Assembly: GCA_020832555.1 (NCBI GenBank)
Contig: JAFIEM010000003.1
Span: forward strand, 1-64,000
Direction of reading: 5' to 3'
Length of the DNA: 64,000 nucleotides
From: Natronohydrobacter sp.
GTDB lineage: Bacteria > Pseudomonadota > Alphaproteobacteria > Rhodobacterales > Rhodobacteraceae
The notes beneath the pieces are model-generated. The model did not search any database. It was not told the DNA's origin and saw only the letters and a program-made list of their open reading frames with translations. Position 1 is the stretch's first letter, and every line of letters starts with the position of its first letter. Of the stretch, positions 40,033-57,904 are shown piece by piece. A program made the translations under genes and the position numbers.

Positions 40033-40062
40033 TGATGGATTTCTGATGTGTTTTTGACGGCG

Positions 40063-41371: not shown

Positions 41372-41563
41372 ATGCGCCTGATTGATCCCGACCATCCGTT
41401 CTATCGTCCGAAATGGCGCCGCTATGTTCTTGTCGCGGCGCCATTTGTCTGGTCGGGCGTGGAATGGAGCCTTGGCAATGCGATCTGGGGCTCTCTGTCC
41501 GCCGCGATTGGCGGCTATCTGGCGTGGCATCTGGTGCTGAACTGGCGCGACCCTGCGGATTAA
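41372..41563 (+). CDS. Small membrane protein of unknown function
   Basis: 63 aa, starting MRLIDPDHPFYRPKWRR. A hydrophobic segment (VLVAAPFVWSGVEW) and a second (AIWGSLSAAIGGYLAWHLVL) suggest two membrane passes with a basic N-terminal cytoplasmic end. Such short LIDPDHPFFRP-type proteins occur commonly as solitary genes in this group, as far as I recall. Stop overlaps the iolG stop by 4 bases (convergent). Function unknown. Confidence 0.7.
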   Translation: MRLIDPDHPFYRPKWRRYVLVAAPFVWSGVEWSLGNAIWGSLSAAIGGYLAWHLVLNWRDPAD

Positions 41564-42555
41564 TCGAGCGGCAGATCAACCGGCTGGCCGCTCTCGCGCG
41601 ACAGTGTTGCCGCATCGGCCAGCATCTGCGCGCGCAAACCGTCCTCGATCCCCGGACCGGTCTGCGCATCCCCGGTCACGGCGGCCACGAAGGCGCGCAT
41701 TTCGGCCAGATAGGCGGCTTCATAGCGTTCGAGGAAGAAATGCTGTGCCGGATCGCGGCGGAAACCTGCATCAGTGGCAATCTCGACTGTGCTTTCCAGC
41801 TGGTTCTCGGCGCGCAACATGCCGCGCTGGCCATGCACTTCGATCCGCTGGTCATAGCCATAGCTTGCCCGGCGCGAATTCGAGATCTGGCAGATCCGCC
41901 CGCTGGTGGTGGTCAGGATCACGGCGGCGGTGTCCACATCGCCCGCCGCGCCGATTTCGGGATCGACAAGCGCGCTGCCCATAGCGTGCAAGCGGATGAA
42001 TTCTTCACCCATCAGAAACCGCGCCATGTCGAAATCATGGATCATCATGTCCCGAAACAGCCCACCCGAGCGCGCGATATAGGACACAGGCGGCGGGGAA
42101 GGGTCGCGCGAGGTGATGGTGACAAGCTCTACCGCGCCGATATCGCCCGCTCGCAGCCGTGCGCGCAGGGCCGCGAAATTGGGGTCGAACCGGCGGTTGA
42201 AGCCGGTCATGAAGGGCACATCTGCCGCCTGAACCGCGGCCATGCAGATGCGGATATTTTCGACGGACATATCGACGGGCTTTTCGCAGAAAATCGCCTT
42301 GCCAGCCTTGGCGGCGCCCATGATCTGGCTGAAGTGGCTATCGGTGGGTGTGCCTATGATCACGGCATCCACATCACTGGCCGTGAGGATCGCTTCCACA
42401 TCGCGCACTTCTGCGCCTGTGGTGGCGGCCAGCGTCTGTGCGGCGGTCGGGATCGCGTCGGCCACGGCGACCACTTCTGCGCCGTCCAGCGCCTTGATGC
42501 TGCGCGCATGGACCTGACCGATCCGCCCGCAGCCCAGTATTCCGATTCTCAGCAT
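41560..42555 (-). CDS. iolG: Inositol 2-dehydrogenase
   Basis: NAD-dependent oxidation of myo-inositol to 2-keto-myo-inositol. The 331-aa Gfo/Idh/MocA protein has the N-terminal GILGCGRIGQVHARS, the CEKP motif with catalytic Lys (about 95-98), GFNRRFDPNF and MIHDFDMARFLMGEEF, which carries the Asp/His of the active site and is characteristic of IolG. Start at 42555, one base after the aldolase stop. Last gene of the iolD-C-B-J-G operon. Confidence 0.95.
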   Translation of the reverse strand: MLRIGILGCGRIGQVHARSIKALDGAEVVAVADAIPTAAQTLAATTGAEVRDVEAILTASDVDAVIIGTPTDSHFSQIMGAAKAGKAIFCEKPVDMSVENIRICMAAVQAADVPFMTGFNRRFDPNFAALRARLRAGDIGAVELVTITSRDPSPPPVSYIARSGGLFRDMMIHDFDMARFLMGEEFIRLHAMGSALVDPEIGAAGDVDTAAVILTTTSGRICQISNSRRASYGYDQRIEVHGQRGMLRAENQLESTVEIATDAGFRRDPAQHFFLERYEAAYLAEMRAFVAAVTGDAQTGPGIEDGLRAQMLADAATLSRESGQPVDLPLD

Positions 42556-42556
42556 C

Positions 42557-43396
42557 TTATGCCTTTCCCGATGCGCCAAGGCCCCGGATGACCGCGCGGG
42601 CGGCATCGAAGACCGGATCATGTGTTTCTTTCAGTATCGACACGCGGTCAAACCGCGCGGGGTCTGCATTGACCGCATCGCGCAGCGCTTTGCCAAAGGC
42701 CATGCGCAACTCGGTGCCGATGTTGAATTTTGCGATCCGTGAGCCGGTCGCAAGTGCCAGGCGCTGCGCGTAAGGCACGCCAGAGCCGCCGTGAATAACC
42801 AGCGGCACTTCGGTCAGCGCTTCGATGGCACGGATGCGGGCTTCGTCCAGCCCGCCCTCGTGATCGGTTTGCAGATGCACGTTGCCGACGGAAATGGCCA
42901 TCGCATCCACAGATGTTTCGCGCGCGAAACGGTCGGCCTCTGCCGGGTCCGTGCCCGCAGAGTTTTCGCCCCCGGAATAGCCGACAAACCCAATCTCACC
43001 CTCGCAGGAAATGCCCGCTGCATGGGCCAGTTCCGCAACCTGCGCAGTCTCTGCAATGTTCTGCGCAAGCGGCTTGCGTGAGCCGTCATACATCAGCGAG
43101 GTGAAGCCCGCATCGCGCGCCTCTCGGCATTCATCGAGCGTATAGCCGTGATCCAGATGCACCACGACCGGCACATCCACATCTGCCGCCAGATGACGCA
43201 TCATCGCGCCCAGCACCGGAAGCGGCGTATGCGCGCGGCAGCTTGGCCCAGCTTGCAGGATAACCGGCGCGCGTTCCGCCTGTGCAGCCAAGGCATAGGC
43301 GCGCATGTCCTCCCATCCAAGGCAGACAAGGCCAGGGACGGCATAGCCGCCTGTGAGCGCAGGTTGCAAAACGTCAGAGAGCGTTGCGAGGGTCAT
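42557..43396 (-). CDS. iolJ: Class II aldolase, likely 6-phospho-5-dehydro-2-deoxy-gluconate aldolase
   Basis: Zn-dependent fructose-bisphosphate-type aldolase (279 aa). Zinc and phosphate motifs: VVVHLDHGYTLDECREARDAG (His residues at about 80-83), DGSRKPLAQNI, then VIHGGSGVPY (about 205-214). Placed directly between iolB and iolG, it should split the IolC product into malonic semialdehyde and DHAP. A glycolytic role is not excluded. Overlaps iolB by 4 bases. Confidence 0.9.
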   Translation of the reverse strand: MTLATLSDVLQPALTGGYAVPGLVCLGWEDMRAYALAAQAERAPVILQAGPSCRAHTPLPVLGAMMRHLAADVDVPVVVHLDHGYTLDECREARDAGFTSLMYDGSRKPLAQNIAETAQVAELAHAAGISCEGEIGFVGYSGGENSAGTDPAEADRFARETSVDAMAISVGNVHLQTDHEGGLDEARIRAIEALTEVPLVIHGGSGVPYAQRLALATGSRIAKFNIGTELRMAFGKALRDAVNADPARFDRVSILKETHDPVFDAARAVIRGLGASGKA

Positions 43397-44232
43397 TTGA
43401 ATTTCGCCACCATATCCATGATTCCGGGGATCGTGTGCAGTTGGGCTGCATGGGTGGGCTGGAAATACTGTTTCAGGCTGCGCTGTGACTGCCCGCCAAG
43501 GATGGTGAAATAATACATCTCATATCCCGGCAGCACGCAGCAGGGGTGATAGCCCTTGTCGATCAGCACGGTCGAGCCATTGACGATGTGATAGGCGTCA
43601 CCCGGTTCGTTATCGACCCGTTGCAGCATTTGCAGGCCGGACCCGTAATCGGGCTTGAAGCGGAAATTGTAGCATTCGTCATGCCGGGTTTCGTCCGGCA
43701 GACGGTCGGTGTCATGCTTGTGACTGGGAAAGCCCGACCAGCCCCCTGCCCCCACGGTGAAGAGTTCCGACACCAGCAATCGCCCCACGCGGTCATGATG
43801 TGCCGCCCCGAGGATATGCTTGATCTTGCGATGGGTCTTGGTGTCGTCGCTGCCATATTGCACCACATCCAGATCGCCCGCGCGCACGGCGAAGGGTTTG
43901 AGGGTTTCGGCAAACTGTGCGCCTGCAATGAAACATTCAGTATCGGTCTGGGCGGTGATGCGCGCGCCGGTATCAGTGGGGATATAAACGCCCTCTGGCT
44001 CTCCATCCCAGACATCGGCGCCGCGATTGCCGATATCGGCGTAGGTTTCGCCAGCGGTTTCAACTGTGACTGTCCCGGTGGCGGGCACGATACAGGTTTC
44101 ATAGCCTGGCACGCGGTAATCGAAATGCGCGCCCGCTTTCAGCTTCACGATGTTGAAATAGACCAGCGGCACATGGGCATCATGGGTGTCCACGATGGGC
44201 CGGTTCTGGTTGTCATGCGGGGCAATATGCAT
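43393..44232 (-). CDS. iolB: 5-deoxy-glucuronate isomerase (first of two)
   Basis: Isomerises 5-deoxy-glucuronate to 5-dehydro-2-deoxy-gluconate. The 279-aa bicupin has FNIVKLKAGAHFDYRVPGYETCIVPATG, then WSGFPSHKHDTD (metal-binding His pair, about 165-176) and YHPCCVLPGYEMYYFTILGG near the C-terminus. Within the iol operon between iolC (11-base gap) and iolJ. A paralogue with the same plan is encoded at 54484-55278. Confidence 0.95.
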   Translation of the reverse strand: MHIAPHDNQNRPIVDTHDAHVPLVYFNIVKLKAGAHFDYRVPGYETCIVPATGTVTVETAGETYADIGNRGADVWDGEPEGVYIPTDTGARITAQTDTECFIAGAQFAETLKPFAVRAGDLDVVQYGSDDTKTHRKIKHILGAAHHDRVGRLLVSELFTVGAGGWSGFPSHKHDTDRLPDETRHDECYNFRFKPDYGSGLQMLQRVDNEPGDAYHIVNGSTVLIDKGYHPCCVLPGYEMYYFTILGGQSQRSLKQYFQPTHAAQLHTIPGIMDMVAKFK

Positions 44233-44243
44233 GGGCGGTCCTT

Positions 44244-45212
44244 TCAGGCGGCGCTGGGGTCGGCGTGGCGTTGCAGGAAATCGTCAAGTTCCGCGCGCGT
44301 GGGCATGGCGGGCGCGCAGCCGACCCGCGCGACCACCATCGCGGCATTGGCAGAGCCTTGCAGTACGGCATCGCGCACCGGCAGGCCATCGGCCAGCCCT
44401 GCGACCAGCCCGCCCATGAAGCTGTCGCCCGCGCCGGTGGGTTTGAGCGCTTTGGTCGGGAAAATGCCCGTCGTGATCTCCCCTTCCGGCGTGATCGTGA
44501 TCGCGCCTTTTTCGCCCATCTTGTAGACGGCCAGTTTCGCGCCTTGGGCAACCAGTTCGCGGGCCTTGTCGAGACCCTTGGCGTAATCGCCTGCCATGAA
44601 ACCGAATTCAACATCATTGCCGACGATCACATCACAGAGCGCGCCGGCGCGGGAATAGACCTCGGCGGCGACTTGGGGCGAGGGCCAGCTATAGGGGCGA
44701 TAGTCGATATCGAAGATCAGGGGCAGACCCGCCGCTTTCGCCAGTTCAAACCCCCGAAACGCGGCTGTGCGCGAGGGTTCTGCCGCAAAAACCGTGCCTG
44801 TGGTGATCAGCGCGTCATAGGCGGCGTAATCCACGGCCTCGACATCCGCCGCCGTCATCTCGAAATCCGCCGCACCGTTGCGATAGATGACCGACTGGTG
44901 ATCCTCGATCCGGGACTCGACCACGGCCAGAGAATTGCGCGCCTCGCCACCCACGGAACGCACATGGGCGCGGCCAATGCCGTATTTGTCCAGCTGATTG
45001 AGCGCAAACCGCCCGATCGCATCATCCGAGACGCAAGTCACCAGATCAGCGCTGCCGCCCAGTTTGCAGATCGCAACCCCGATATTGGCCGATGACCCGC
45101 CCAGACAGGCGAAGAATTGCGTGGCTTCTTCGGTCTTGGTGCCGGGCGGGTCGGGGTAGAAATCCATGCCCGCGCGCCCGATGATGACAAAGCGATTACC
45201 GTTGAGCCGCAT
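44244..45212 (-). CDS. iolC: 5-dehydro-2-deoxygluconokinase
   Basis: PfkB-family kinase of the inositol pathway. 322 aa: N-terminal FVIIGRAGMDFYPD, the ACLGGSSANIGVAICKLGG block (about 38-56) and the C-terminal anion-hole TGAGDSFMGGLVAGL with catalytic Asp. The start at 45212 gives the usual N-terminus; the longer open frame reads back into iolD. One base separates it from iolD. Confidence 0.95.
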   Translation of the reverse strand: MRLNGNRFVIIGRAGMDFYPDPPGTKTEEATQFFACLGGSSANIGVAICKLGGSADLVTCVSDDAIGRFALNQLDKYGIGRAHVRSVGGEARNSLAVVESRIEDHQSVIYRNGAADFEMTAADVEAVDYAAYDALITTGTVFAAEPSRTAAFRGFELAKAAGLPLIFDIDYRPYSWPSPQVAAEVYSRAGALCDVIVGNDVEFGFMAGDYAKGLDKARELVAQGAKLAVYKMGEKGAITITPEGEITTGIFPTKALKPTGAGDSFMGGLVAGLADGLPVRDAVLQGSANAAMVVARVGCAPAMPTRAELDDFLQRHADPSAA

Positions 45213-45213
45213 C

Positions 45214-47085
45214 TTACACCCCCTGCCGCTGACGGGCGCGGGTGGCCTCGATCTCGGCGTGTTTTGCGCGGACATTGGCATTGTCAGAGGTCTGGGGCGT
45301 GCCGACTTCCCACCAGGCATGACCTTGCGTGGTCCAGCCCTCGTAAGGGTCCACCTGCATGACGATAACCGTGGTCTTGTCAGACGCCTTGGCGCGGGTA
45401 AACGCCTCGCCCAGTTCCGCCGGGTTCGCGACAGTGACGGCATCGGCCCCCATCGCGCGGGCATGGGCTTCGAAATCGACGGCGAAGGGCTCGGGCACAG
45501 TCGGGCAATCGGCGATCAGGTTGTTGAAACTGTCTTGGCCCGTGTTGTTTTGCAATTTGTTGATGACCGCAAAGCCGCCATTGTCGAGAACGAGGATGAT
45601 CAGTTTCTTCTGCGTCAGCACGCTGGAATAGATGTCCGAATTCATCAGCAGATAGCTGCCATCGCCCACGAAAACGATGGTGTCGGCCTCTGGCTCGACC
45701 TCGGCCTGTGCGATGCGCGCGCCCCAGCCACCGGCGATTTCATAGCCCATGCAGGAGAAACCGAATTCCACATCGACCGTGCCGATATCCAGCGTGCGCC
45801 AGTTGGCGGTCACTTCGGCGGGCAAGCCGCCTGCGGCAGTCACCACGCGGTCGCGCGGATCGCAGAGCGCGTTCACCACGCCGATGGCCTGCGCATAGCT
45901 GTTGGGCCGGTTGCCATGCGCCACATTCTGCGCGACATAGCTATCCCATGCGCGGCGCTCGTCCTGCGCGCGGGTGGTCCAATCAGCGGGGGCGCGATAT
46001 TCGTCCAAGGCAGCGCCCAACAGTGGCAAGGCCAGTTTCGCATCGCCCACGACTGGCAGAGACAGATGTTTCATCGCGTCATGCCGCCCGACATTCAGCC
46101 CGATCAGCCGCGCGTCCTTGGCAAATGCCGTCCATGACCCGGTGGTGAAATCCTGCAGCCGCGTGCCGACAGCAAGGATTACATCGGCGGCTTCCGCAAT
46201 CGCATTGGCGCTGTCGGACCCGGTCACGCCAATCGGGCCAATGTTCAGCGGGTGGGTGGCCAGCATGTTGGCGCGGCCTGCGATGGTTTCGACAACAGGA
46301 ATGCCATGCGCTTCGGCAAAGGCGGTCAGTTCCGCAACCGCGCCGGAATACTGCACGCCGCCGCCTGCAATGATCATCGGGCGCTTGGCCTGTGCCAGCG
46401 CGCGGGCGGCATCGGTGATTTCGGCACTGTCGGGCGTCTGGCGGCGGATGCGGTGGACGCGGCGGGCGAAAAACTCTTCGGGATAGTCATAGACCCAGCC
46501 CTGCACATCCTGCGGCAGACCGATAAAGGCCGGGCCGCAATCGGCAGGATCGAGCATCGTGGCGAGCGCTGCGGGCAGCGACTGGATGACCTGCGCGGGA
46601 TGGGTGATGCGGTCCCAGAAACGACTCACGGGTTTGAAGGCGTCATTGACGCCAAGGGTCGGATTGCCGAAATGTTCAAGCTGTTGCAGCACCGGATCGG
46701 GCAGGCGTGTCAGGAACGTATCGCCGCACAGCATCAGCATCGGCAGGCGGTTGGCATGGGCGAGCGCCGCTGCGGTCAGCAGATTGGCCGTGCCCGGTCC
46801 GGCGCTGGCGGTGCAGAACATGAAGCGCCGCCGCAAATGATATTTCGCATAAGCCGCCGCCGCAAAGCCCATGCTCTGTTCGTTCTGGCCGCGATAGAGC
46901 GGCATCTCGGCATGGTGGGGATAGAGCGCCTCGCCCAGACAGGGGACATTGCCATGACCGAAAATGCCGAATCCGCCGCCACAGATGCGGGTTTCCGTGC
47001 CGTCAATCTCGATGAACTGGCCCATCAGGTAGCGCGTGATCGCCTGTGCCACTGTCAGCCGGATGGTGCCGCCGGTCTGTGTCAT
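45214..47085 (-). CDS. iolD: 3D-(3,5/4)-trihydroxycyclohexane-1,2-dione hydrolase
   Basis: TPP-dependent ring opening of the diketo inositol intermediate. The 623-aa protein has the acetolactate-synthase-like three-domain plan: YRGQNEQSMGFAAAAYAK (conserved Glu for TPP, about 75-92), a central Rossmann-type domain (IIAGGGVQYSGA), and the C-terminal TPP-binding VGDGSYLLMNSDIYSS with later DNGGFAVINKLQ. The ATG at 47085 follows GGAGGG. First gene of the minus-strand operon, facing an operator palindrome 81 bases upstream. Confidence 0.97.
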   Translation of the reverse strand: MTQTGGTIRLTVAQAITRYLMGQFIEIDGTETRICGGGFGIFGHGNVPCLGEALYPHHAEMPLYRGQNEQSMGFAAAAYAKYHLRRRFMFCTASAGPGTANLLTAAALAHANRLPMLMLCGDTFLTRLPDPVLQQLEHFGNPTLGVNDAFKPVSRFWDRITHPAQVIQSLPAALATMLDPADCGPAFIGLPQDVQGWVYDYPEEFFARRVHRIRRQTPDSAEITDAARALAQAKRPMIIAGGGVQYSGAVAELTAFAEAHGIPVVETIAGRANMLATHPLNIGPIGVTGSDSANAIAEAADVILAVGTRLQDFTTGSWTAFAKDARLIGLNVGRHDAMKHLSLPVVGDAKLALPLLGAALDEYRAPADWTTRAQDERRAWDSYVAQNVAHGNRPNSYAQAIGVVNALCDPRDRVVTAAGGLPAEVTANWRTLDIGTVDVEFGFSCMGYEIAGGWGARIAQAEVEPEADTIVFVGDGSYLLMNSDIYSSVLTQKKLIILVLDNGGFAVINKLQNNTGQDSFNNLIADCPTVPEPFAVDFEAHARAMGADAVTVANPAELGEAFTRAKASDKTTVIVMQVDPYEGWTTQGHAWWEVGTPQTSDNANVRAKHAEIEATRARQRQGV

Positions 47086-47165
47086 CTGTCCCTCCCTCAG
47101 TTTCGCCGGACACCGGCAATAGGTGAATTGCCAGTTGCGTCTGCGTCCGTGTGAGGATATCAATT

Positions 47166-47181
47166 TTGCAACCGGTTGCAA
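47166..47181. promoter_or_regulatory. Perfect 16-bp LacI-type operator, iolD / Gfo-Idh promoter
   Basis: TTGCAACCGGTTGCAA is a complete palindrome lying between divergent iolD (start 47085) and the Gfo/Idh gene (47212). The same 16 bases recur at 51456-51471. It fits the consensus of LacI-family operators (central CG). Confidence 0.85.
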
Positions 47182-47211
47182 CCCATCTCGACCGGCAGGG
47201 AGGAAGAAATC

Positions 47212-48327
47212 ATGCGCCAGATCGGAATCGGCCTAGTGGGCGGGGGCTATATGGGCAAGGCGCATGCCGTGGCCTATGCCGCTGTCGGCGCGGTTTTTGA
47301 CACGGCGTTGCGCCCGCGTCTGGAAATGATTGCCGGATCGCGCCCCGAATCATCCGAACGCTACCGCGCAGCCTATGGTGTCGCCCGCGCCGCGCCCGAC
47401 TGGCAGACGCTGGTCGCCGATCCGGCAGTTGAGGCGGTGGTGATCGCCTCTCCGCAGGGGACGCATCGCGCTATTGCCGAGGCGGCTTTTGGCCTTGGCA
47501 AACCTGTATTCTGCGAAAAACCGCTTGGGGCCACGCTGGAAGATGCGCGCGCCATGGTGGCAGCGGCAGAGGCGGCGGGCGTGGTCAATATGATCGGCTT
47601 CAATTATGTGCGCACGCCCGCGACGCAATTCGTGCACCAGATGCTTGCCGATGGCGTGATCGGGGATGTGACCTGGTTTCGCGGTGAGCATAGCGAGGAT
47701 TTTCTGGCCGACCCGAACGCGCCTGCGACATGGCGCTGTCAGGGCCGGGCCAATGGTTGCATGGGGGATCTCTCGCCGCATATGATAAATTGCGCGCTGA
47801 CGCTGATGGGCGAGATTTCAGAGGTTTCGGCGCGGATCGAGACGGTGCATGCCACGCGGCCCGGCGCGGATGGCCCTGCCCCAGTGGACAATGACGACCA
47901 TGGGCAGATGATGCTGCGCTTCGCGTCAGGCGTAATGGGGCATCTGTATTTCAGCCGCACCGCCACCGGGCGCAAGATGGGCTATGCCTATGAGATTCAT
48001 GGCACGAAGGGCGCGATCCGCTTTGATCAAGAAGATCAGAATGCGGTCTGGTTGTATCGCGCAGATGGCCCCGAGGCGCAGCGGGGCTTCACGAAAATCC
48101 TGACCGGTCCCGCCCATCCCGATTACCTGCCCTTCTGTCAGGGGCCGGGGCATGGCACCGGCTATCAGGATCAGATCATCATCGAGGCGCGCGATTTCCT
48201 GCGCGCCATCGAGACCGGCCAGCCCGTCCGGCCTACGTTCCGCGACGGGCTGGCCGTGGCGCAGGTGATTGACACGGCTTTCGCCTCGGCCATTCAGGGC
48301 CGCTGGCTTTCTGTTCCCTCTTTCTGA
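47212..48327 (+). CDS. Gfo/Idh/MocA family oxidoreductase (inositol-linked)
   Basis: 371-aa NAD(P)-dependent dehydrogenase with IGLVGGGYMGKAHAVAY at the N-terminus, VFCEKPLGATLEDA (catalytic Lys, about 101) and MGDLSPHMINCALTLMGE with the active-site His. The internal ATG at 47212, after GGAGG, is the better start; the open frame begins earlier. It is coupled to the IolE-like gene. A role on a stereoisomer such as scyllo-inositol or on inositol derivatives is inferred from context. Confidence 0.88.
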   Translation: MRQIGIGLVGGGYMGKAHAVAYAAVGAVFDTALRPRLEMIAGSRPESSERYRAAYGVARAAPDWQTLVADPAVEAVVIASPQGTHRAIAEAAFGLGKPVFCEKPLGATLEDARAMVAAAEAAGVVNMIGFNYVRTPATQFVHQMLADGVIGDVTWFRGEHSEDFLADPNAPATWRCQGRANGCMGDLSPHMINCALTLMGEISEVSARIETVHATRPGADGPAPVDNDDHGQMMLRFASGVMGHLYFSRTATGRKMGYAYEIHGTKGAIRFDQEDQNAVWLYRADGPEAQRGFTKILTGPAHPDYLPFCQGPGHGTGYQDQIIIEARDFLRAIETGQPVRPTFRDGLAVAQVIDTAFASAIQGRWLSVPSF

Positions 48328-48339
48328 AAGGCACATCGC

Positions 48340-49230
48340 ATGACGATTCGCATCGGCAATGCCCCCTGTAGCTGGGGTGTCGAATTTCCGGATGACCCGC
48401 GCAATCCGCCCTGGCGTCAGGTGCTGAGTGAATGCGCCAAGGCAGGCTATACCGGCATCGAACTTGGTCCTGTCGGGTTCATGCCCGAAGACCCTGCCAT
48501 TCTGGCCGATGCGCTGGCCGAGACCGGGCTGGAACTGATCGGAGGCGTCGTGTTCCGCGCCTTTCATGACCCGGACCAGTGGGAAAATGTGCTGGATGGG
48601 GCCGTGCGGACCTGCAAGGCGCTGGTCGCGCATGGGGCGCAGCATCTGGTGCTGATCGACTCGATCTCGCCCCGCCGCGCGCCGACGGCTGGCCGGGCGG
48701 ATGCGGCTGAACAGATGGATGCGCAGGAATGGTCGGCATTCCGCGACCGGATCGCGCATGTCGCGCGGATGGGGGCCGAGGAGTTTGGGCTGACGGTTGG
48801 TATTCACGCCCATGCGGCGGGGTTCATCGATTTCGAGCCGGAACTGGAGCGGTTGTTGGATGAAGTGCCGGAGGAGATATTGAAAATCTGCTTCGATACG
48901 GGCCATCATTCCTATGCAGGCTTTGATCCGGTGGCTTTCATGCGCCGCCATATGGGCCGTATTTCCTATATGCATTTCAAGGATATCGACCCGGTGGTGA
49001 AGGCCGATGTGATCGCCAGGGGAACCGGGTTCTATGACGCTTGCGGGCAGGGCATTTTCTGCAATCTGGGCAAGGGAGATGTGGATTTCACGGCTGTCCG
49101 GCAGTTGCTGCTCGATCACGGCTTTGAGGGCTGGTGCACAGTCGAGCAGGATTGCGACCCGACACTGGATGTCTCGCCGGTAACGGATGCGCGGGCCAAT
49201 CGTGAATATCTGCAAAGCATCGGGTTCTGA
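48340..49230 (+). CDS. iolE: Sugar-phosphate isomerase/epimerase family, likely inosose dehydratase
   Basis: 296-aa TIM-barrel of the AP-endonuclease 2 superfamily. Features: GNAPCSWGVEF at the start, AGYTGIELGPVGFMP, VGIHAHAAGFIDFE, ILKICFDTGHHSYAG (metal-ligand Asp/His), ISYMHFKDIDP and WCTVEQDCDP. The metal-binding residues match IolE/xylose-isomerase-like enzymes. As no other iolE is seen, it is the best candidate for 2-keto-myo-inositol dehydratase that links IolG to IolD; a scyllo-inosose or epimerase function is an alternative. Confidence 0.8.
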   Translation: MTIRIGNAPCSWGVEFPDDPRNPPWRQVLSECAKAGYTGIELGPVGFMPEDPAILADALAETGLELIGGVVFRAFHDPDQWENVLDGAVRTCKALVAHGAQHLVLIDSISPRRAPTAGRADAAEQMDAQEWSAFRDRIAHVARMGAEEFGLTVGIHAHAAGFIDFEPELERLLDEVPEEILKICFDTGHHSYAGFDPVAFMRRHMGRISYMHFKDIDPVVKADVIARGTGFYDACGQGIFCNLGKGDVDFTAVRQLLLDHGFEGWCTVEQDCDPTLDVSPVTDARANREYLQSIGF

Positions 49231-49241
49231 GGGGGCGGGAC

Positions 49242-50372
49242 ATGAAGCTGAACTGGGGAATGATCGGCGGGGGCGAAGGCAGCCAGATCGGGCCTGCGCA
49301 CCGGCTGGGGGCGCAGGCGGACGGGCTGTTCACGCTGGCCGCAGGCGCTCTGGATGCCGATGCCGAGAAGGGCCGCGCCTATGCCATACGGCTGGGCGTG
49401 GCGGCGGACCGGGCCTATGGCGACTGGCGCGAGATGCTGGAGGGTGAGCGCGAGCGGGCGGACCGGGTGGATCTGGTGACTGTGGCGACGCCGAACGCCA
49501 CGCATTTCGAGATTACAAAGGCGTTTCTTGAAGCCGGGTTTCATGTGCTCTGCGAGAAGCCCATGACGATGAGCGTCGAGGAAGGCGAGGAGATTGTGAA
49601 GATCGCCGCCGCCTCTGGTCGGATTTGCGCGGTGAATTACTGCTATTCCGCCTATCCGATGGTGCGCGAGATGCGCGAAATGGTGCGCAGCGGAGCGTTG
49701 GGCAAGATCCGGCTGGTGGTCACGAATTTCAGCCATGGCCATCACGGCGATGCCGCTGACGCGGATAATCCGCGCGTGCGCTGGCGCTATGATCCGGCCA
49801 TGGCCGGGGTTTCGGGCCAATTCGCCGATTGCGGGATTCATGCGCTGCATATGGCGAGTTTCATAACTGGCGATCAGGTCGCAACGCTATCGGCGGATTT
49901 CGCCTCGACTATTGCGCCGCGCGTGCTGGAAGATGATGCGATGGTGAATTTCCGCATGTCGGGCGGCACTGTCGGGCGGCTTTGGACCAGTTCGGTCGCG
50001 ATTGGTCGCCAGCACGGGTTCGATATTCAGGTGTTTGGCGAAACCGGCGGGCTGCGTTGGGCCTCGGAACAGCCCAATCAGGTCTATTACACCCCTGTTG
50101 GCGGGCGCACGCAGATCATGGAAAAGGGCGAGGCGGGCTTGAGCAGCGAGGCCGCGCGCCTGAGTCGCGTGGCGATTGCGCACCCGGAAGGCTTTCCGCT
50201 GGCGGTGGCGAATATCTATGTCGATCTGGCTGCCGCGATCACAGGAGAGGCGCGGGACGGGTTGCCCTTGGCCGAAGACGGGTTGCGGTCGATGGCAGCG
50301 GTTTATGCGGCAGTGGAATCGGCGCGGGCCAAGGGCGCATGGGTTGATGCGCGCCCGCCGATGTTCCGATAA
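49242..50372 (+). CDS. Gfo/Idh/MocA family oxidoreductase, second inositol-linked paralogue
   Basis: 376 aa with WGMIGGGEGSQIGPAHRLG at the N-terminus, HVLCEKPMTMSVEEGEEIV (about 102-120) and FADCGIHALHMASFITGD containing the active-site His. It follows the IolE-like gene by 11 bases and ends 4 bases from the converging LacI gene. Likely a dehydrogenase for another inositol isomer or its methyl ether; not assignable further. Confidence 0.88.
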   Translation: MKLNWGMIGGGEGSQIGPAHRLGAQADGLFTLAAGALDADAEKGRAYAIRLGVAADRAYGDWREMLEGERERADRVDLVTVATPNATHFEITKAFLEAGFHVLCEKPMTMSVEEGEEIVKIAAASGRICAVNYCYSAYPMVREMREMVRSGALGKIRLVVTNFSHGHHGDAADADNPRVRWRYDPAMAGVSGQFADCGIHALHMASFITGDQVATLSADFASTIAPRVLEDDAMVNFRMSGGTVGRLWTSSVAIGRQHGFDIQVFGETGGLRWASEQPNQVYYTPVGGRTQIMEKGEAGLSSEAARLSRVAIAHPEGFPLAVANIYVDLAAAITGEARDGLPLAEDGLRSMAAVYAAVESARAKGAWVDARPPMFR

Positions 50373-50376
50373 AGCC

Positions 50377-51378
50377 CTAATCCGGCAAGGGCCGCAACGT
50401 GCCGCGTTCAATCACGCGGCACGGAAAGAGGCGGGTTTCGGGGTGGCGGTCGGGCTGTTCGATGGTTGCGACCACCAGATCAATCGAGGCGGCGATAATC
50501 TCGGGGATCGGCTGGCGGATCGTGGTCAGGTTGATGTTTTCCCAGCGCGCCATGGCCATGTCGTTCAAGCCGATGATCCCGATATCCTGTGGTACCTGCA
50601 AACCTTTATCGGCAATCGCGGAAAGCGCGCCGATGGAAAGCACATCGTCGCCGCCGAAATACGCCTCGGCCGGGTCGGACTGCAACAAACGCGCCATTTC
50701 TGCGCGTCCTGCATCGAAAGAATAGGCGCTGGCATAGCTTACGCTGACCGCGATTTCCGGATGCGTGGCCAAGGCGTCCAGAAAGCCCCGCGCGCGGTCC
50801 TGGGTCGAGGTCGCCCCTTCCGGTCCGCCCATGAAGGCAACGCGCCTGTGGCCGCGCGCGATCAGCGCCTGCGCGGCCATACGCCCGCAGGCGATATTGT
50901 CGATCCCAACGACATGCACATGCGGGCTGGTCGTGTAGCGCCCGAAAGAATGGACCACCGGCACGCCCGCATCGCGGAACGCCTCGGCGAAGCTGGGCTG
51001 CAGGGTCGAGGAGGCGACGATCACCCCATCGACGGAATATTGCCGCAACATGCGCACCGAATTTGCGGGATCGGTTTCATGGCTCAGATTGACCAGAAGC
51101 GGGCGCAAGCCGCGCTCTTGCAGACCGCGCGTGAACAGGTCGAACACTTCCAGAAACAGCGGGTTGTGGAAGTTGTTCGACACCAGCCCGATCAGCTTGG
51201 TGCGCCCTGTGGTCAGCGAGGAGGCAAGGGCATTCGGGCTGTAGCCAAGTTCCTGCGCCGCCGCTTCGACCTTGGCGCGGGTCTTGGCTGAGACAGATGC
51301 GCCTTCGGTGAAGGTGCGCGAGACCGCAGAGCGCGACACGCCCGCACGTTCCGCCACATCTTTGAGCGTGACCGCCAT
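50377..51378 (-). CDS. LacI family regulator of the inositol regulon
   Basis: 333-aa repressor. HTH TLKDVAERAGVSRSAVSRTFTEGASVS (about 4-29) followed by the hinge and a periplasmic-binding-like core (LIGLVSNNFHNPLFLEVF, VDGVIVASSTL). The start at 51378 is chosen because the HTH must be near the N-terminus; an upstream TTG/ATG frame would run into the operator palindrome. It stands between the Gfo/Idh genes and the ABC importer, and identical operators flank both divergent promoters, so it is an IolR-like candidate; the inducer is probably an inositol intermediate. Confidence 0.92.
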   Translation of the reverse strand: MAVTLKDVAERAGVSRSAVSRTFTEGASVSAKTRAKVEAAAQELGYSPNALASSLTTGRTKLIGLVSNNFHNPLFLEVFDLFTRGLQERGLRPLLVNLSHETDPANSVRMLRQYSVDGVIVASSTLQPSFAEAFRDAGVPVVHSFGRYTTSPHVHVVGIDNIACGRMAAQALIARGHRRVAFMGGPEGATSTQDRARGFLDALATHPEIAVSVSYASAYSFDAGRAEMARLLQSDPAEAYFGGDDVLSIGALSAIADKGLQVPQDIGIIGLNDMAMARWENINLTTIRQPIPEIIAASIDLVVATIEQPDRHPETRLFPCRVIERGTLRPLPD

Positions 51379-51455
51379 GACACTCCGTCCAACCGCTTGC
51401 GCCGGTGTTATCGCAAAGCCCTGATCAAAGAAATAGTGCCCTGAGAGAAAGATAT

Positions 51456-51471
51456 TTGCAACCGGTTGCAA
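51456..51471. promoter_or_regulatory. Perfect 16-bp LacI-type operator, lacI / ABC-importer promoter
   Basis: Same palindrome TTGCAACCGGTTGCAA as at 47166-47181, 77 bases upstream of the lacI start and 83 bases upstream of the binding-protein start. It predicts autoregulation plus control of the importer. Confidence 0.85.
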
Positions 51472-51553
51472 AAACTTTGATTCGGGGCTACAGTCTTGTC
51501 AGGGCGTTTTGGGAGCACCCCGGACTCGCCCGCAACATGTTTGGGAGGACATC

Positions 51554-52501
51554 ATGAAGGCAACTTTGAAGACGCTTGCAATCAGCGCCGTCGCGGCCTC
51601 TGCGATGATGAGCGGCACCGCCGCTCTGGCGGAGGGCGAGCGCTATATTCTGGTCAGCCATGCACCGGACAGTGACAGCTGGTGGAACACGATCAAGAAT
51701 GGACTTGCGCTGGCCGGCGAACAGATGGATGTGACGGTCGAATATCGCAACCCGCCCACCGGCGATCTGGCGGATATGGCGCGGATCATCGAGCAGGCCG
51801 CCGCCAGCAATCCGAACGGAATCATCACCACACTGGCCGACCCGGATGTGCTGTCCGGCCCGATTTCCGCAGCGGTAGATGCGGGCATCGACGTGATCAT
51901 CATCAATTCCGGCACGCCGGATCAGGCACGCGCGCTGGGTGCGCTGATGTATGTGGGCCAGCCGGAATATGATGCAGGCTTTGCTGCCGGTCAGCGCGCG
52001 GCGGGCGATGGCGTGACCAGCTTCCTGTGCGTGAACCACTACATTTCATCCCCCTCCTCGACCGAGCGGTGCCAGGGCTTCGCTGATGGGCTTGGGATTG
52101 ATCTGGGCAATCAGATGATCGACAGCGGGCAAGACCCGAGCGAGATCCAGAACCGGGTCATGGCCTATCTGAATGCCAACCCGGACACGGATGCGGTGCT
52201 GACGCTTGGGCCGACTTCGGCTGATCCGACGATTCTGGCGCTGCAGCAGATGGGTCTGGCCGGGGATATCTATTTCGGCACCTTCGATCTGGGCGGCGAT
52301 ATCGTGCAGGCGATCCGTGACGGCGTGATTCAGTGGGGCATTGACCAGCAGCCCTTCCTGCAAGCCTATCTGCCGGTGATCGTGCTGACCAACTACCATC
52401 GTTTCGGCGTTCTGCCGGGCAACAACATCAATTCCGGCCCCGGCTTCGTGACAGCGGATGCGCTGGATCTGGTGGCGGAACTGGCGGGCGAATATCGCTG
52501 A
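51554..52501 (+). CDS. Sugar ABC importer, substrate-binding protein (inositol-linked)
   Basis: Periplasmic type-I binding protein, 315 aa, with signal peptide (residues 1-27, ends AALAEG). The core has RYILVSHAPDSDSWWNTIKNGL, then GIITTLADPDVLSGPISAAVDAGIDVIIINSG and DPSEIQNRVMAYLNANPDTDAVLTLGPT, as in the ribose/inositol (Peripla_BP_4) family. ATG at 51554 follows GGGAGG. An inositol ligand is inferred from the regulon. Confidence 0.88.
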   Translation: MKATLKTLAISAVAASAMMSGTAALAEGERYILVSHAPDSDSWWNTIKNGLALAGEQMDVTVEYRNPPTGDLADMARIIEQAAASNPNGIITTLADPDVLSGPISAAVDAGIDVIIINSGTPDQARALGALMYVGQPEYDAGFAAGQRAAGDGVTSFLCVNHYISSPSSTERCQGFADGLGIDLGNQMIDSGQDPSEIQNRVMAYLNANPDTDAVLTLGPTSADPTILALQQMGLAGDIYFGTFDLGGDIVQAIRDGVIQWGIDQQPFLQAYLPVIVLTNYHRFGVLPGNNINSGPGFVTADALDLVAELAGEYR

Positions 52502-52549: not shown

Positions 52550-52575
52550 TCGGAACATTGTTAGGAGAAGCAGCG

Positions 52576-53691
52576 ATGTCCAGCACGGGCGCGACCGTCG
52601 ACGAACGCATCAAGGAAACATCGAAACTGCGCAAGGCGCTGATCCGCCCGGAATTGGGCGCGATTGTAGGCACCATCGCCGTTTTCCTGTTCTTTATCAT
52701 CTTCGCTGGCGACAGTGGTATGTTCAACGCCCAGGGCGTAATGAACTGGTCTACAGTCTCGGCGCAGTTCGTGATCATCGCGGTCGGAGCCTGCATGCTG
52801 ATGATCGCAGGCGAGTTTGATCTTTCGGTCGGCTCGATGATCGGGTTTGCGGGCATGTCGATTGCGATCTTCTCGGTCACGCTGGGCTGGCCGGTCTGGT
52901 TTGCAATCCTGCTGACATTCGCCATCTGCATCGCCATCGGCGCGCTGAACGGGGTGATCGTGGTGCGCACAGGCCTGCCCAGTTTCATCGTGACGCTGGC
53001 CTTTCTGTTCATCCTGCGCGGCTTCACCATCTTTTTCCCGCAACTGATCGAGCGGCGTACGATCATCGGCGGCATTGCCGAACGCGCCGCAGGCGACTGG
53101 CTGGCACCGGTATTTGGCGGCAAGGTCGGCGGCTTCTTCTTTGACTGGCTGGCCAGTCAGGGCCTGATCGCGGTCTTTGAGCGCGGCACGCGGGCGGGTG
53201 AGCCGATTGTGAACGGCATTCCGATGCTGATTGTCTGGGCGCTTGGGCTGATGATCGTGGCGCATATCGTGCTGACGCGCACGCGCTTCGGCAACTGGGT
53301 CTTTGCCGCAGGGGGCGACGCACAGGCCGCGCGTTATGTCGGTGTTCCCGTCGCACGGGTGAAAATCCTGATGTTCATGTTCACGGCCTTTTGCGCCACG
53401 GTCTTTGCCACTTGTCAGGTGATGGAATTCGGCTCGGCGGGCGCGGATCGCGGTTTGCTGAAAGAATTTGAAGCCATCATCGCCGTGGTGATCGGCGGTG
53501 CGCTGCTGACCGGGGGCTATGGCTCGGTCATCGGGGCGGCGCTGGGGGCGCTGATCTTCGGGGTGGTGCAGCAGGGGCTGTTCTTCGCCGGGGTCGAATC
53601 GAGCCTGTTCCGGGTGTTTCTGGGGGTGATCCTGCTCTTTGCGGTGATCCTGAACACCTATATCCGCCGCATCATCACCGGGGAGCGCTGA
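52576..53691 (+). CDS. Sugar ABC importer, permease
   Basis: 371-aa inner-membrane permease of the monosaccharide (AraH/RbsC) type with about ten hydrophobic segments. The family motif [20 protein letters not shown] (about 75-94) and [25 protein letters not shown] near the C-terminus are clear. It starts 1 base pair away from TAGGAG and is followed 1 base later by the ATPase gene. Confidence 0.92.
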
Positions 53692-53692
53692 G

Positions 53693-54484
53693 ATGAGCAG
53701 TTTCGACCACAACCCGATTGTCGAGATGCGCAATATCGAAAAGCATTTCGGTCCGGTCATCGCGCTGAACGGGGTCAGTTTCGACATCCGTCCGGGGGAA
53801 TGCCACTGTCTGCTGGGTGACAATGGCGCGGGGAAATCCACTTTCATCAAGACCATGTCGGGCGTGCACAAGCCCACTCGCGGCGATATCTTTTTCGAGG
53901 GCCAGCGCATGGATTTCGCCAGCCCCCGCGATGCGATGGAAGCGGGGATTGCGACAGTCTATCAGGATCTGGCGATGATCCCGCTGATGAGCGTGACCCG
54001 CAATTTCTGGATGGGGCGAGAGCCGATCAAGCGCGTAGGGCCGTTCAGCTTCATGGATTTTTCCAAGGCCAATGACGTGACCATGGAAGAAATGCGCAAG
54101 ATGGGGATCAATCTGCGATCACCGGATCAGGCGGTTGGCACGCTTTCGGGCGGCGAGCGGCAGACCGTGGCGATTGCGCGGGCGGTCTATTTCGGGGCCA
54201 AGGTGCTGATTCTGGACGAACCGACCTCGGCATTGGGGGTGCGGCAGACCGCGAATGTACTGGCGACCATCGACAAGGTGCGCAAGGCCGGGATTGGTGT
54301 GGTCTTCATCACCCATAATGTGCGTCATGCGATGGCGGTGGGAGACCGGTTTACGGTGCTGAACCGTGGCAAGACCCTGGGCACGGCCCAGCGCGGGCAG
54401 ATCACGCCCGAAGAATTGCAGGACCTGATGGCAGGCGGGCAGGAACTGGTCGCGCTGGAAGGTTCTCTGGGCGGGACCGTGTGA
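53693..54484 (+). CDS. Sugar ABC importer, ATP-binding protein
   Basis: 263-aa single-domain ATPase (short FrcA-like, unlike the duplicated RbsA type): Walker [12 protein letters not shown] (about 39-49), signature [15 protein letters not shown] and Walker [12 protein letters not shown] with Gly after Ala, then [11 protein letters not shown]. The stop TGA overlaps the next start ATG by one base (TGATG), coupling it to the second iolB. Confidence 0.93.
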
Positions 54485-55278
54485 TGGGAAAGCTGCTGCG
54501 CAGACCGACCGGCCAGAGCGGGCTTGTCCATGCCATTACCCCGGAAGCTGCGGGCTGGGGCTATGTCGGCTTCGATCTGTGGCGGCTCGCGCCCGAAGAT
54601 CTGGCCGGCGGCAGGCTGGAGGGGCGCGAGGCGATCCTTGTGCTGGTCGAGGGCCGCGCCGAGATCATTGCAGATGGGCGCTCCCTGGGCGAACTGGGCG
54701 GGCGGATGACTGTTTTCGAGCGCACAGCCCCCCATTGCGTCTATATCCCGCCCGGCACCGCCTGGCAGGCGCGTGCCAGCACCCCCTGCGTGCTGGCGGT
54801 CTGCACGGCCCCCAGCCCCGGCGGGCGGCCTGTGCAGGTGCTTGGGCCAGAGGGGATTGTGCTGGAGCAACGCGGCCAAGGCACGAATGCCCGATTCATC
54901 AACAATATCGCAATGGAAGGGCGCGATGTGGCCGATAGCCTGCTGGTGACGGAAGTGTTCACGCCTGCGGGGCATTGGTCCTCTTACCCACCGCACCGGC
55001 ATGATGAAGATACCTTTCCCGATCTGACCTATCTGGAAGAAACCTATTATCACCGCCTTGATCCGCCCGATTGTTTCGGACTCCAGCGGGTGTTCACGGA
55101 TGATCTGAGCCTGGATGAAACCATGGCCCCGGCGGATCACGATGTCGTGCTGGTGCCTCGGGGTCATCACCCCTGCGCGGCTCCGCATGGGGTCGAGATG
55201 TATTATCTGAATGTCATGGCCGGGCCGCGCAGGGCGTGGCGCTTTCAGACCCACCCGGCATTTGCCCATATGATGTGA
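54484..55278 (+). CDS. Second 5-deoxy-glucuronate isomerase-like protein
   Basis: 264-aa bicupin of the KduI/IolB family, starting [13 protein letters not shown]. Key blocks: APHCVYIPPGTAWQARAS, GHWSSYPPHRHDEDTFPDLTYLEETYY (metal-binding His-His and Glu, about 160-187) and HPCAAPHGVEMYYLNVMAG. It is the last gene of the importer operon. It shares the catalytic residues with the IolB at 43393-44232 but its N-terminal domain is very different, so a distinct substrate (another inositol-derived deoxy-uronate) is plausible. Confidence 0.88.
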   Translation: MGKLLRRPTGQSGLVHAITPEAAGWGYVGFDLWRLAPEDLAGGRLEGREAILVLVEGRAEIIADGRSLGELGGRMTVFERTAPHCVYIPPGTAWQARASTPCVLAVCTAPSPGGRPVQVLGPEGIVLEQRGQGTNARFINNIAMEGRDVADSLLVTEVFTPAGHWSSYPPHRHDEDTFPDLTYLEETYYHRLDPPDCFGLQRVFTDDLSLDETMAPADHDVVLVPRGHHPCAAPHGVEMYYLNVMAGPRRAWRFQTHPAFAHMM

Positions 55279-56067: not shown

Positions 56068-56610
56068 ATGTCGAAACATTTCTTCACGCCGAAATCGCGC
56101 GAAAGCAGTCAGATCACCTTCCGCCGCCCAGTCAAGGCAGACGGGTCCGAGGTCTGGAAGCTGGTTGCCGCCTGCCCGCCACTGGACCAGAACTCGATGT
56201 ATATGAATGTCGTGCAGTGCGATCACTTCGCGGAAACATGCATCATCGCGGAACGTGACGGGCAGATCGTCGGGTGGATTTCCGGCCATGTCCCCCCCGA
56301 GAGCCCCCAGACACTGTTTGTCTGGCAGGTGGCCGTCCATGCCGATGCGCGCGGACTGGGCCTTGGGAAGCGTATGCTGAAGCAACTGCTGGGCCGTCCC
56401 GCCTGCCGCAACATGCGCAGCCTGGAGACCACGATAACGCGCAGCAACGAGGCGTCCTGGGGGCTGTTCCGCAGCTTCGCGCGCGATCTGGGTGGAACCT
56501 TGAGCGACGCCCCGCATTATGAACGTGACGCCCATCTGGATGGGCAGCACGCGACCGAGCATCTGGTCACAATCAGCCTGCCGCGCCACGCCTTGCGCGT
56601 TGCGGCCTGA
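56068..56610 (+). CDS. ectA: L-2,4-diaminobutyrate acetyltransferase
   Basis: Acetylates diaminobutyrate in ectoine synthesis. The 180-aa GNAT-fold protein has ITFRRPVKADGSEVWKLV and QNSMYMNVVQCDHF (N-terminal ectoine-enzyme block) and the acetyl-CoA site VHADARGLGLGKRMLKQLL (about 90-108). First gene of ectABC-ask; 28 bases precede ectB. Confidence 0.96.
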   Translation: MSKHFFTPKSRESSQITFRRPVKADGSEVWKLVAACPPLDQNSMYMNVVQCDHFAETCIIAERDGQIVGWISGHVPPESPQTLFVWQVAVHADARGLGLGKRMLKQLLGRPACRNMRSLETTITRSNEASWGLFRSFARDLGGTLSDAPHYERDAHLDGQHATEHLVTISLPRHALRVAA

Positions 56611-56638
56611 CAGATCCAAGATACGAAAGGTTTTCCCT

Positions 56639-57904
56639 ATGACAGATATTTACACACGCCGCGAATCGCAGGCGCGCAGCTACTGCCGCGCCTTTCCTGT
56701 CACTTTCACCAAAGCGGTGAATGCGACGATGACCGACGATCAGGGTCGCGACTATACCGATTTTCTTGCGGGCTGTTCCTCGCTGAACTACGGCCATAAC
56801 GACCCGGACATGAAAGCGGCCCTGATCGCACATCTGGACGCTGATGGCGTGACACATGGTCTGGACATGCATACGAGCGCCAAGGAAGCGTTTCTGGACA
56901 CGTTCGAACGGCTGATCCTTGCGCCGCGCGGGATGGATCACAAGGTGATGTTCACCGGCCCCACCGGCACCAATGCGGTCGAAGCGGCGATGAAACTCGC
57001 GCGCAAGACGACGGGACGCGACACGATTGTTGCCTTTACCAACGGATTTCATGGCATGACCATGGGGGCGCTGGCCGCGACCGGCAATGCGGGCAAGCGC
57101 GCTGGCGCGGGCACCAGCCTGACCGGCGTGGTGCGCATGCCCTATGAGGGCGCGCTTCCCGGTGTCGATTCGCTGGCCATGATCCGCGCCATGCTGGAAA
57201 ACCCGTCGAGCGGGATTGATGCCCCCGCGGCATTCCTGATCGAACCGGTGCAGGGCGAAGGCGGGTTGAATGCGGCCTCGAAAGAGTTCCTGCAAGGGAT
57301 TGAAGCTCTGGCGCGCGAGCATGGTGCGCTGGTGATCATGGATGACATTCAGGCCGGGATTGGCCGCACGGGTCCGTTCTTCAGCTTCGAAGAGATGGGC
57401 GTGACGCCTGATCTGATTCCGCTGGCGAAATCCCTGTCGGGCATGGGGCTGCCCATGGCGGCACTTCTGATCCGCCCGGATCTGGATATCTGGAAACCGG
57501 CGGAACATAACGGCACATTCCGCGGCAACAACCATGCTTTCGTGACCGCGCGTGTCGCGCTGGAAAAATTCTGGGCTGATGACAGCTTTCAGAAGCAGGT
57601 CGAGGAAAAGGCCGCTTTCCTGACGCAGCGCCTGAAGCGCATTGCGAAGCTTGTGCCCGGTGCCTCGCTGAAAGGGCGCGGCATGATGCAGGGGGTTGAT
57701 CTGGGCTCGGGCGATCTGGCCGCGAGCGTCTGTGCAACCTGCTTCGAGAACGGTCTGATCATCGAGACCTCTGGCGCGCATGATGAGGCCGTCAAGGTTC
57801 TGGCACCGCTGACCATTCCTCAGGCGCAATTTGCCGCCGGACTGGATATTCTGGAAAATGCCGTATCGGCACAGACCAGCACGCAAAAAATCGCAGCGGA
57901 GTAA
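56639..57904 (+). CDS. ectB: Diaminobutyrate-2-oxoglutarate aminotransferase
   Basis: PLP class-III aminotransferase that makes diaminobutyrate from aspartate semialdehyde and glutamate. 421 aa; [28 protein letters not shown], then [20 protein letters not shown] (Asp that holds the PLP ring N) and [14 protein letters not shown] with the Schiff-base Lys. The start at 56639 ([20 protein letters not shown]) is the usual N-terminus; the longer frame upstream reads through ectA. Confidence 0.97.

Follow-up and report, generated by a model that had tools for sequence, protein, structure and literature searches.

The stretch of DNA analyzed here, the first 64,000 nucleotides of contig JAFIEM010000003.1 of Natronohydrobacter sp. 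(assembly GCA_020832555.1; Rhodobacteraceae) and called the window below, contains an inositol locus with split catabolic operons and an ATP-binding cassette (ABC) importer. The same 16-bp palindrome, TTGCAACCGGTTGCAA, lies in two divergent gaps of this locus, which raises the question of what binds there and which genes are controlled in this way. The comparisons described below make it very probable that the palindromes serve as operators for the LacI-family protein encoded next to them, a putative local inositol repressor resembling IolR. The three elements at issue are the following:

47166–47181, no strand: predicted operator B, TTGCAACCGGTTGCAA, in the divergent gap between iolD and gfo1
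51456–51471, no strand: predicted operator A, TTGCAACCGGTTGCAA, in the divergent gap between lacI and the ABC importer
50377–51378, minus strand: LacI-family regulator of 333 residues, the proposed IolR, with a helix-turn-helix domain (PF00356) and PF13377 (Peripla_BP_3), both above cut-off

Both copies are exact and each is a perfect palindrome. Operator B lies in the gap 47086–47211, 80 bases from the ATG of iolD (47085, minus strand) and 30 bases from that of gfo1 (47212, plus strand), and operator A in the gap 51379–51553, 77 bases from the ATG of lacI (51378, minus strand) and 82 bases from that of the gene for the substrate-binding protein (51554, plus strand). The original observation that the window contains these two exact copies and no other holds with up to three mismatches allowed. 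A genome-wide search for the exact palindrome likewise recovered only the two known copies in the 3.9-Mb assembly of the organism itself (G000; 3,904,375 bases in 238 contigs, 86% complete), with none at one or two mismatches; at three mismatches 23 more sites appear, none of them in the window, against 5 for a reversed control pattern. As the assembly is 86% complete, further sites may be missing from it. Among 295 genomes of the family (294 genera, own genome counted), 86 contain the exact palindrome, and the reversed, non-complemented control 16-mer does not occur in any of them.

The palindrome is found together with the regulator. With orthologues of LacI called at an E-value of 1e-110, 84 of the 295 genomes have both palindrome and LacI, 2 the palindrome only, 13 LacI only (LacI thus being present in 97) and 196 neither (Fisher 8.5e-57, a value that ignores the relatedness of the genomes and hence is no strict probability). 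Twelve of the 13 LacI genomes devoid of the exact palindrome have a copy with one mismatch, located in an inositol or importer gap, G068 being the only one limited to three-mismatch copies. The protein itself reaches no cut-off of an NCBIfam equivalog. Within the orthologue group, a variant CCGATT replaces CCGGTT at site B in 4 of 12 loci whose recognition helix has an alanine in place of the usual threonine (L068, L072, L081 and L158, with both sites variant in the first three), and in 2 loci that have the threonine, five proteins off the search pattern having been set aside. This covariation of helix and operator is suggestive only, since the four variant loci look like about two lineages.

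The sites are conserved in position as well. We kept the best 80 of 182 relatives of LacI, 73–95% identical to it, more distant ones falling outside this set. Site B is found no more than 400 bp from iolD or iolC in all 72 loci in which the iolD-side gap is visible (67 exact copies, 5 with one mismatch); in the other eight the gap is lost mostly to contig ends, whereas in L034 and L057 lacI does not have these genes as neighbors. Of the 80 loci, 68 have a site in the 200 bp that precede lacI (57 of these sites being exact, 10 having one mismatch and 1 having two), and 6 of the other 12 have it farther upstream, before a transporter operon in lacI orientation (5 exact, 1 with one mismatch). In L034, L046, L047, L065, L078 and L081, where the transporter has been inverted or exchanged for another, it is the transporter that the site precedes. 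Records of Aurantimonas, Pararhizobium, Geminicoccaceae and Granulosicoccus are part of the set, so the pair of LacI and palindrome is not confined to one family. For 30 of the 86 genomes one palindrome locus each was inspected; 28 of these loci showed inositol or transport genes of the window type within 1.5 kb, and the remaining two show such genes once the stretch is extended. A sample drawn from the whole phylum, 398 genomes that in part coincide with the family set, includes 17 with the exact palindrome, among them 14 of the 27 family genomes, each of which has a copy at an inositol locus (with one locus inspected per genome). An occurrence of the palindrome beside many unrelated LacI genes, named with the original prediction as an outcome that would speak against it, was thus not encountered in the sample, given these 14 family genomes and the 3 genomes with a copy among 371 outside. 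Separately, the 16-mer is present more than once, and exactly, in each of the viral contigs L168, L169, L176 and L186 (6 copies in the 11.8 kb of L168), with no window-type inositol genes near the palindrome in the 24 stretches of viral contigs inspected, which were left out of the comparison.

The site next to lacI was compared in those 78 named loci for which 700 bp or more of upstream sequence were available. A lacI-side site with at most one mismatch is present in 66 of 66 loci in which lacI and a binding-protein gene diverge, and in 0 of 12 without a divergent gene of this kind, one of the latter (L054) having a two-mismatch site. A second set of 24 loci, picked partly for missing exact copies, includes two with the divergent gene, both of which have the site; of its other 22 members, 3 show one mismatch, 7 two or three, and 12 more, a pattern suggestive of decay. 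In Aurantimonas (L046, L047), where the transporter is reversed, the operator stands before the transporter rather than before lacI. Operator A has therefore most likely been selected for the importer promoter, and since it tracks the divergent importer gene, autoregulation of lacI, possible in the layout of the window, looks incidental. Autoregulation is common, though not universal, among LacI-family regulators. The proposal that LacI regulates its own gene through this site is accordingly weakened: the site does adjoin lacI, but in the 78 loci it is retained with at most one mismatch only in the presence of the divergent binding-protein gene.

Sequence profiles of the flanks were built from 68 sites A and 72 sites B and point to three promoters:

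47154–47181, minus strand: predicted iolD promoter; −35 TTGCAA (47181–47176) in the operator, 16-bp spacer, −10 TATCCT (47159–47154)
47135–47163, plus strand: predicted gfo1 promoter; −35 TTGCGT (47135–47140), 17-bp spacer, −10 TATCAA (47158–47163)
51466–51494, plus strand: predicted importer promoter; −35 TTGCAA (51466–51471) in the operator, 17-bp spacer, −10 TACAGT (51489–51494)

The 16 operator columns are near invariant and most flanking columns stay below 0.45 bit. As the sites were chosen at no more than two mismatches to the palindrome, invariance within the 16 columns is partly there by construction, and the unbiased part of this footprint is given by the coverage counts (72/72 gaps for site B; 66/66 versus 0/12 for site A). 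In the iolD direction TAnnnT is found at the predicted −10 offset in 97% of 72 loci, the conserved form being TATCcT, and in the importer direction in 51% of 67 loci, with at most 10% at any other offset. In the gfo1 direction a TTGCg element and a GATA block are conserved in the 72 relatives and TAnnnT is not enriched, so that this prediction is weaker; no promoter in the lacI direction could be defined. The conserved flanks suggest promoters whose −35 element is formed by the TTGCAA half of the operator. The predicted gfo1 start falls inside operator B, the −10 elements of iolD and gfo1 share two bases, and the two predicted starts lie about 23 bp apart on opposite strands, if a start 7 bp after each −10 is assumed. 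Bidirectional bacterial promoters were defined in one study by starts 7–25 bp apart, with a usual spacing of 18 bp (PMC10268837); the iolD/gfo1 pair, with overlapping −10 elements, would fall within this range, and differs in that a protein-coding operon follows on either side and a single operator serves both. Near-invariant predicted operators in the same two gaps, their co-occurrence with LacI and the conserved promoter-like elements interleaved with them are established by these comparisons. The proposed arrangement of one LacI protein and two operators serving split catabolic operons and an importer agrees with the presence of LacI in 84 of 86 palindrome genomes and of site B in 72 of 72 gaps.

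The genes that would be governed from the two gaps are listed below.

45214–47085, minus strand: iolD, trihydroxycyclohexanedione acylhydrolase (TIGR04377, 797 bits for a cut-off of 715)
44244–45200, minus strand: iolC, 5-dehydro-2-deoxygluconokinase (TIGR04382, 307 bits for a cut-off of 300)
43393–44232, minus strand: iolB copy 1 (iolB1), divergent IolB-like (TIGR04378, 160 bits, under the cut-off of 205)
42557–43396, minus strand: class II aldolase (F_bP_aldolase), with a role as IolJ suggested by position
41560–42621, minus strand: iolG, inositol 2-dehydrogenase (TIGR04380, 433 bits for a cut-off of 355)
47212–48327, plus strand: gfo1, Gfo/Idh dehydrogenase 1 of the scyllo-inositol dehydrogenase type (nearest solved structure 5ya8)
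48340–49230, plus strand: IolE-like inosose dehydratase (TIGR04379, 176 bits, under the cut-off of 290; the IolE structure 3cny is nearest in the PDB)
49242–50372, plus strand: gfo2, Gfo/Idh dehydrogenase 2, assigned to the Gfo/Idh family only
51554–52501, plus strand: ABC substrate-binding protein, rhizopine-binding-protein-like (NF052284, 276 bits, under the cut-off of 420)
52558–53691, plus strand: ABC permease (BPD_transp_2)
53693–54484, plus strand: ABC ATPase (ABC_tran)
54481–55278, plus strand: iolB copy 2 (iolB2), 5-deoxyglucuronate isomerase (TIGR04378, 292 bits for a cut-off of 205)

The curated NCBIfam cut-offs are thus reached by iolD, iolC, iolG and iolB2 and missed by the IolE-like protein, iolB1 and the binding protein. 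The open reading frame (ORF) of iolC is open from 45464, and because its domain begins at residue 92 the true start is probably near 45200. The two IolB-type proteins are 30% identical to each other, the copy of the catabolic operon being the one under the IolB cut-off. The nearest solved relative of gfo1 is LgdA, a scyllo-inositol dehydrogenase of Paracoccus laeviglucosivorans that also has L-glucose dehydrogenase activity (PMC5969746, as far as its available text goes). Seven of the eight substrate or catalytic residues listed there are kept in gfo1 (K106, Y135, E165, R178, D191, H195 and H318), Y163 being replaced by His, in an alignment counted by hand. Given this relationship and the rhizopine-like binding protein, myo- and scyllo-inositol, perhaps with other inositols, are the likely substrates of the locus. 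In Natronohydrobacter thiooxidans AH01 (L003), the closest named relative, no gfo1 match was found and the operator is kept in a shortened gap. Downstream of the importer operon lies ectB (diaminobutyrate transaminase, above cut-off; 56519–57904).

The following mechanism can be proposed. In the absence of an inducer derived from inositol, a LacI dimer would occupy each site; at site A it would cover the −35 element of the importer promoter, and at site B the −35 element of iolD together with the gfo1 start. As the −10 elements of the iolD and gfo1 promoters overlap, a single dimer at site B would silence both directions. Binding of inositol or of an early intermediate would release the dimers and switch on four transcription units, iolD-iolC-iolB1-aldolase-iolG, gfo1-iolE-gfo2, lacI, and importer-iolB2. 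Operator A would have been retained for the importer promoter, with regulation of lacI as a side effect of the divergent gene order. We also considered a DNA loop joining the two sites, but did not adopt this reading. The LacI protein of E. coli is tetrameric and longer than 333 residues; as the present protein ends at residue 333, a dimer is likelier than a looping tetramer. The further claim that all inositol genes belong to one regulon went too far. It is strongly supported by the comparisons for the catabolic operons and the importer, but a neighboring pair of genes encoding a PhyH-family dioxygenase and a second LacI-type regulator (LacI2) has a different motif, and the best match to an iolA-type methylmalonate-semialdehyde dehydrogenase lies on a different contig of the assembly, in which no third palindrome was found at up to two mismatches.

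Several observations weigh against the palindromes being repressor operators of this LacI and have to be set beside the evidence in favor. Two of the palindrome genomes, G201 (97% complete) and G264 (77%), have no LacI match at 1e-110, and six of the 80 loci (L048, L057, L063, L070, L073 and L079) have no site before lacI or the transporter within the DNA covered, with less than 500 bp available there in L073. The three exact copies outside the family have no window-type genes within 1.5 kb, one of them lying inside an ORF of 568 codons, and a remote exact copy (L132:6330–6345) precedes a gene pair for a 3-oxoacid CoA-transferase. A generic promoter scanner reported no promoter in either gap, the elements given above coming from the conservation profile alone. 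Moreover, site A overlaps the predicted −35 element of the importer promoter with its center at about −37, where some activators bind. One could thus imagine that LacI activates the importer and catabolic promoters through the palindrome, which we regard as very improbable: operator B covers the predicted gfo1 start, where binding would block, and the TTGCAA halves are reasonable −35 elements, for which help is not obviously needed.

It is hardly conceivable that the identity of the two 16-mers is due to chance or to a repeat. When three mismatches are allowed, shuffled versions of the window do contain 0.32 matches on average, and at least two in 4 of 100 shuffles; the pair is exact, however, with no copy at one or two mismatches in 3.9 Mb, the reversed control is absent from the 295 genomes, and site B is retained in 72 of 72 gaps, so that such an origin is already contradicted. 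That another regulator binds the palindromes would be more plausible in a genome with 16 LacI-type DNA-binding domains in all, one of them, LacI2, in the same inositol neighborhood; a further candidate would be a protein similar to the IolR of Caulobacter, which is of the RpiR type. We nevertheless consider it very unlikely, as the palindrome goes with the present LacI orthologue in 84 of 86 genomes and the gap next to LacI2 contains a conserved direct repeat of its own, with no match to the palindrome there at up to three mismatches. The Caulobacter motif was not found near the inositol genes, its two matches in the window (515 and 9954) being at chance level and far from them, and a regulon of that type was rejected. 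Repression by the adjacent LacI-family protein is therefore retained as the preferred explanation.

The kind of switch proposed here, a LacI-family IolR, is already known. In the accessible text of Ravcheev et al. 2014 (PMC4052901), inositol is a listed class of LacI-family regulators, with seven groups and IolR as the example of a regulator, and LacI-family operators are described as even palindromes with a CG center, located mostly 30–140 bp before starts. The present system is alike in its LacI-family regulator and its inositol genes, in the distances between sites and starts, and in the operator itself, an even 16-bp palindrome with a central CG, conserved among the LacI orthologues and placed before catabolic and uptake genes as in LacI-type IolR. 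It differs in that the lacI-side operator appears to track the transporter and not lacI. That part of the text gives neither an IolR operator sequence nor organisms and does not name this orthologue group, which may already be included in RegPrecise. A literature query with the 12-base core of the palindrome matched only a trypanosome paper. As for the IolR of Caulobacter (CC1297), the available portion of Boutte et al. 2008 (PMC2597717) reports that its loss derepresses split promoters of inositol enzymes and of an ABC transporter, that it forms a new class not homologous to earlier IolRs, that its motif is GGAA-N6-TTCC and that iolR is not regulated by inositol; the likeness to the present locus lies in the alphaproteobacterial host and in one palindrome common to split promoters.

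Copies of the palindrome also occur away from the lacI locus in relatives. Eight remote exact sites were examined among the matches listed (G223:C2 and G115:C8, for example, being left out), and in seven of them the genes that follow are for inositol use, ABC transport or PhyH. An ABC-transporter operon follows in three cases (L134, L138 and L144), that of L134 opening with an iolG-like gene and including an iolB-like gene as well; the site in L142 precedes iolG, and that in L146 a series of TIM-barrel, binding-protein, ABC and iolG-like genes. The other two precede a gene of the PhyH family, in L131 and, with two tandem copies 26 bp apart, in L141. The window has its own PhyH gene, 60% and 52% identical to these two, which forms part of the following group:

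40120–41298, plus strand: PhyH-family Fe/2-oxoglutarate-type dioxygenase (PF05721), beside iolG
39001–40032, minus strand: LacI2, second LacI-type regulator (PF00356 and Peripla_BP_4), divergent from PhyH
40033–40059, no strand: direct repeat TGATGnnTTnnTGATG with an 11-bp period in the LacI2/PhyH gap, distinct from the palindrome

Within the DNA covered, PhyH was seen in 31 of the 80 named loci. In 16 of these it lies between the ATPase gene and iolB2 of the importer operon, in 1 after the ATPase gene with no iolB2 visible, in 4 after iolB2, in 6 beside iolG as in the window, in 3 on the other strand after the ATPase gene, and in 1 between iolG and lacI. Examples traveling with both inositol genes and operator include L009, L010, L012, L131, L141 and L221, and in G043 a version of the paralogous module described below, iolD2-iolE2-phyH-iolB2, follows a transporter and a one-mismatch operator. 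Across the family, PhyH is present in 65 of 295 genomes, 52 of which also have LacI (Fisher 4e-19, relatedness ignored). Against such a link, PhyH has no match at an E-value of 1e-60 in 45 of the 97 genomes with LacI, and it occurs in 13 genomes that lack LacI, the stretch retrieved from several of these containing no inositol gene. The regulatory link of PhyH to the predicted operator is nonetheless established in relatives by the gene arrangements above.

In the window itself, PhyH is paired with LacI2, as in relatives, and the direct repeat occurs in 15 of 15 LacI2-PhyH gaps and in 0 of 15000 shuffles, counted with a pattern slightly looser than TGATGnnTTnnTGATG; the repeat has one more exact copy in the assembly. 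LacI-family operators are usually palindromes, unlike direct repeats. Given the conservation of the repeat in this gap, the PhyH gene of the window is probably under LacI2 control and apparently outside the palindrome regulon. A degenerate palindrome near 40062, TGGCAACTGGTTTCAG (four mismatches, counted by hand), is not regarded as an operator, since no counterpart of it is evident in the 14 orthologous gaps, whereas the direct repeat is kept in all 15.

Concerning the function of PhyH, residues H183xD185, H276 and R288 are invariant across 23 sequences; an HxD motif, a distal His and an Arg are expected of Fe(II)/2-oxoglutarate enzymes. Relatives of solved structure are distant only. A literature search on PhyH in connection with inositol catabolism yielded no match from bacteria, and the PhyH association is the part of the system for which this search found no counterpart. 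Tentatively, and at somewhat less than even chances, we suggest that a PhyH-type Fe(II)/2-oxoglutarate dioxygenase, functionally in the regulon, performs an undescribed oxidative step of bacterial inositol metabolism. As the importer has a rhizopine-binding-protein-like component, we propose as a guess that the enzyme may open methylated, deoxy- or amino-inositols to the standard pathway. A paralogous module, made up of IolC-like (30–34% identity), IolD-like (42–48%) and IolE-like (25–28%) proteins with PhyH and IolB2, was observed in L195, L197, L200, L202, L206, L221 and L223–L226, the five genes not all being visible everywhere; it is possibly a second inositol-type pathway.

For the biology of the family, the layout is simple, in that a single dimer may shut two divergent promoters that overlap. 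The evolutionary comparison illustrates that autoregulation does not necessarily follow from the position of an operator next to a regulator gene. The exact 16-mer appears to be a regulon signature that can be read in genomes of Rhodobacteraceae and that marks, at the sites examined, mostly genes of inositol uptake and breakdown, distant ones included. Such a signature makes gene discovery direct, in that it flags extra transporters and a conserved dioxygenase for which no described role was found.

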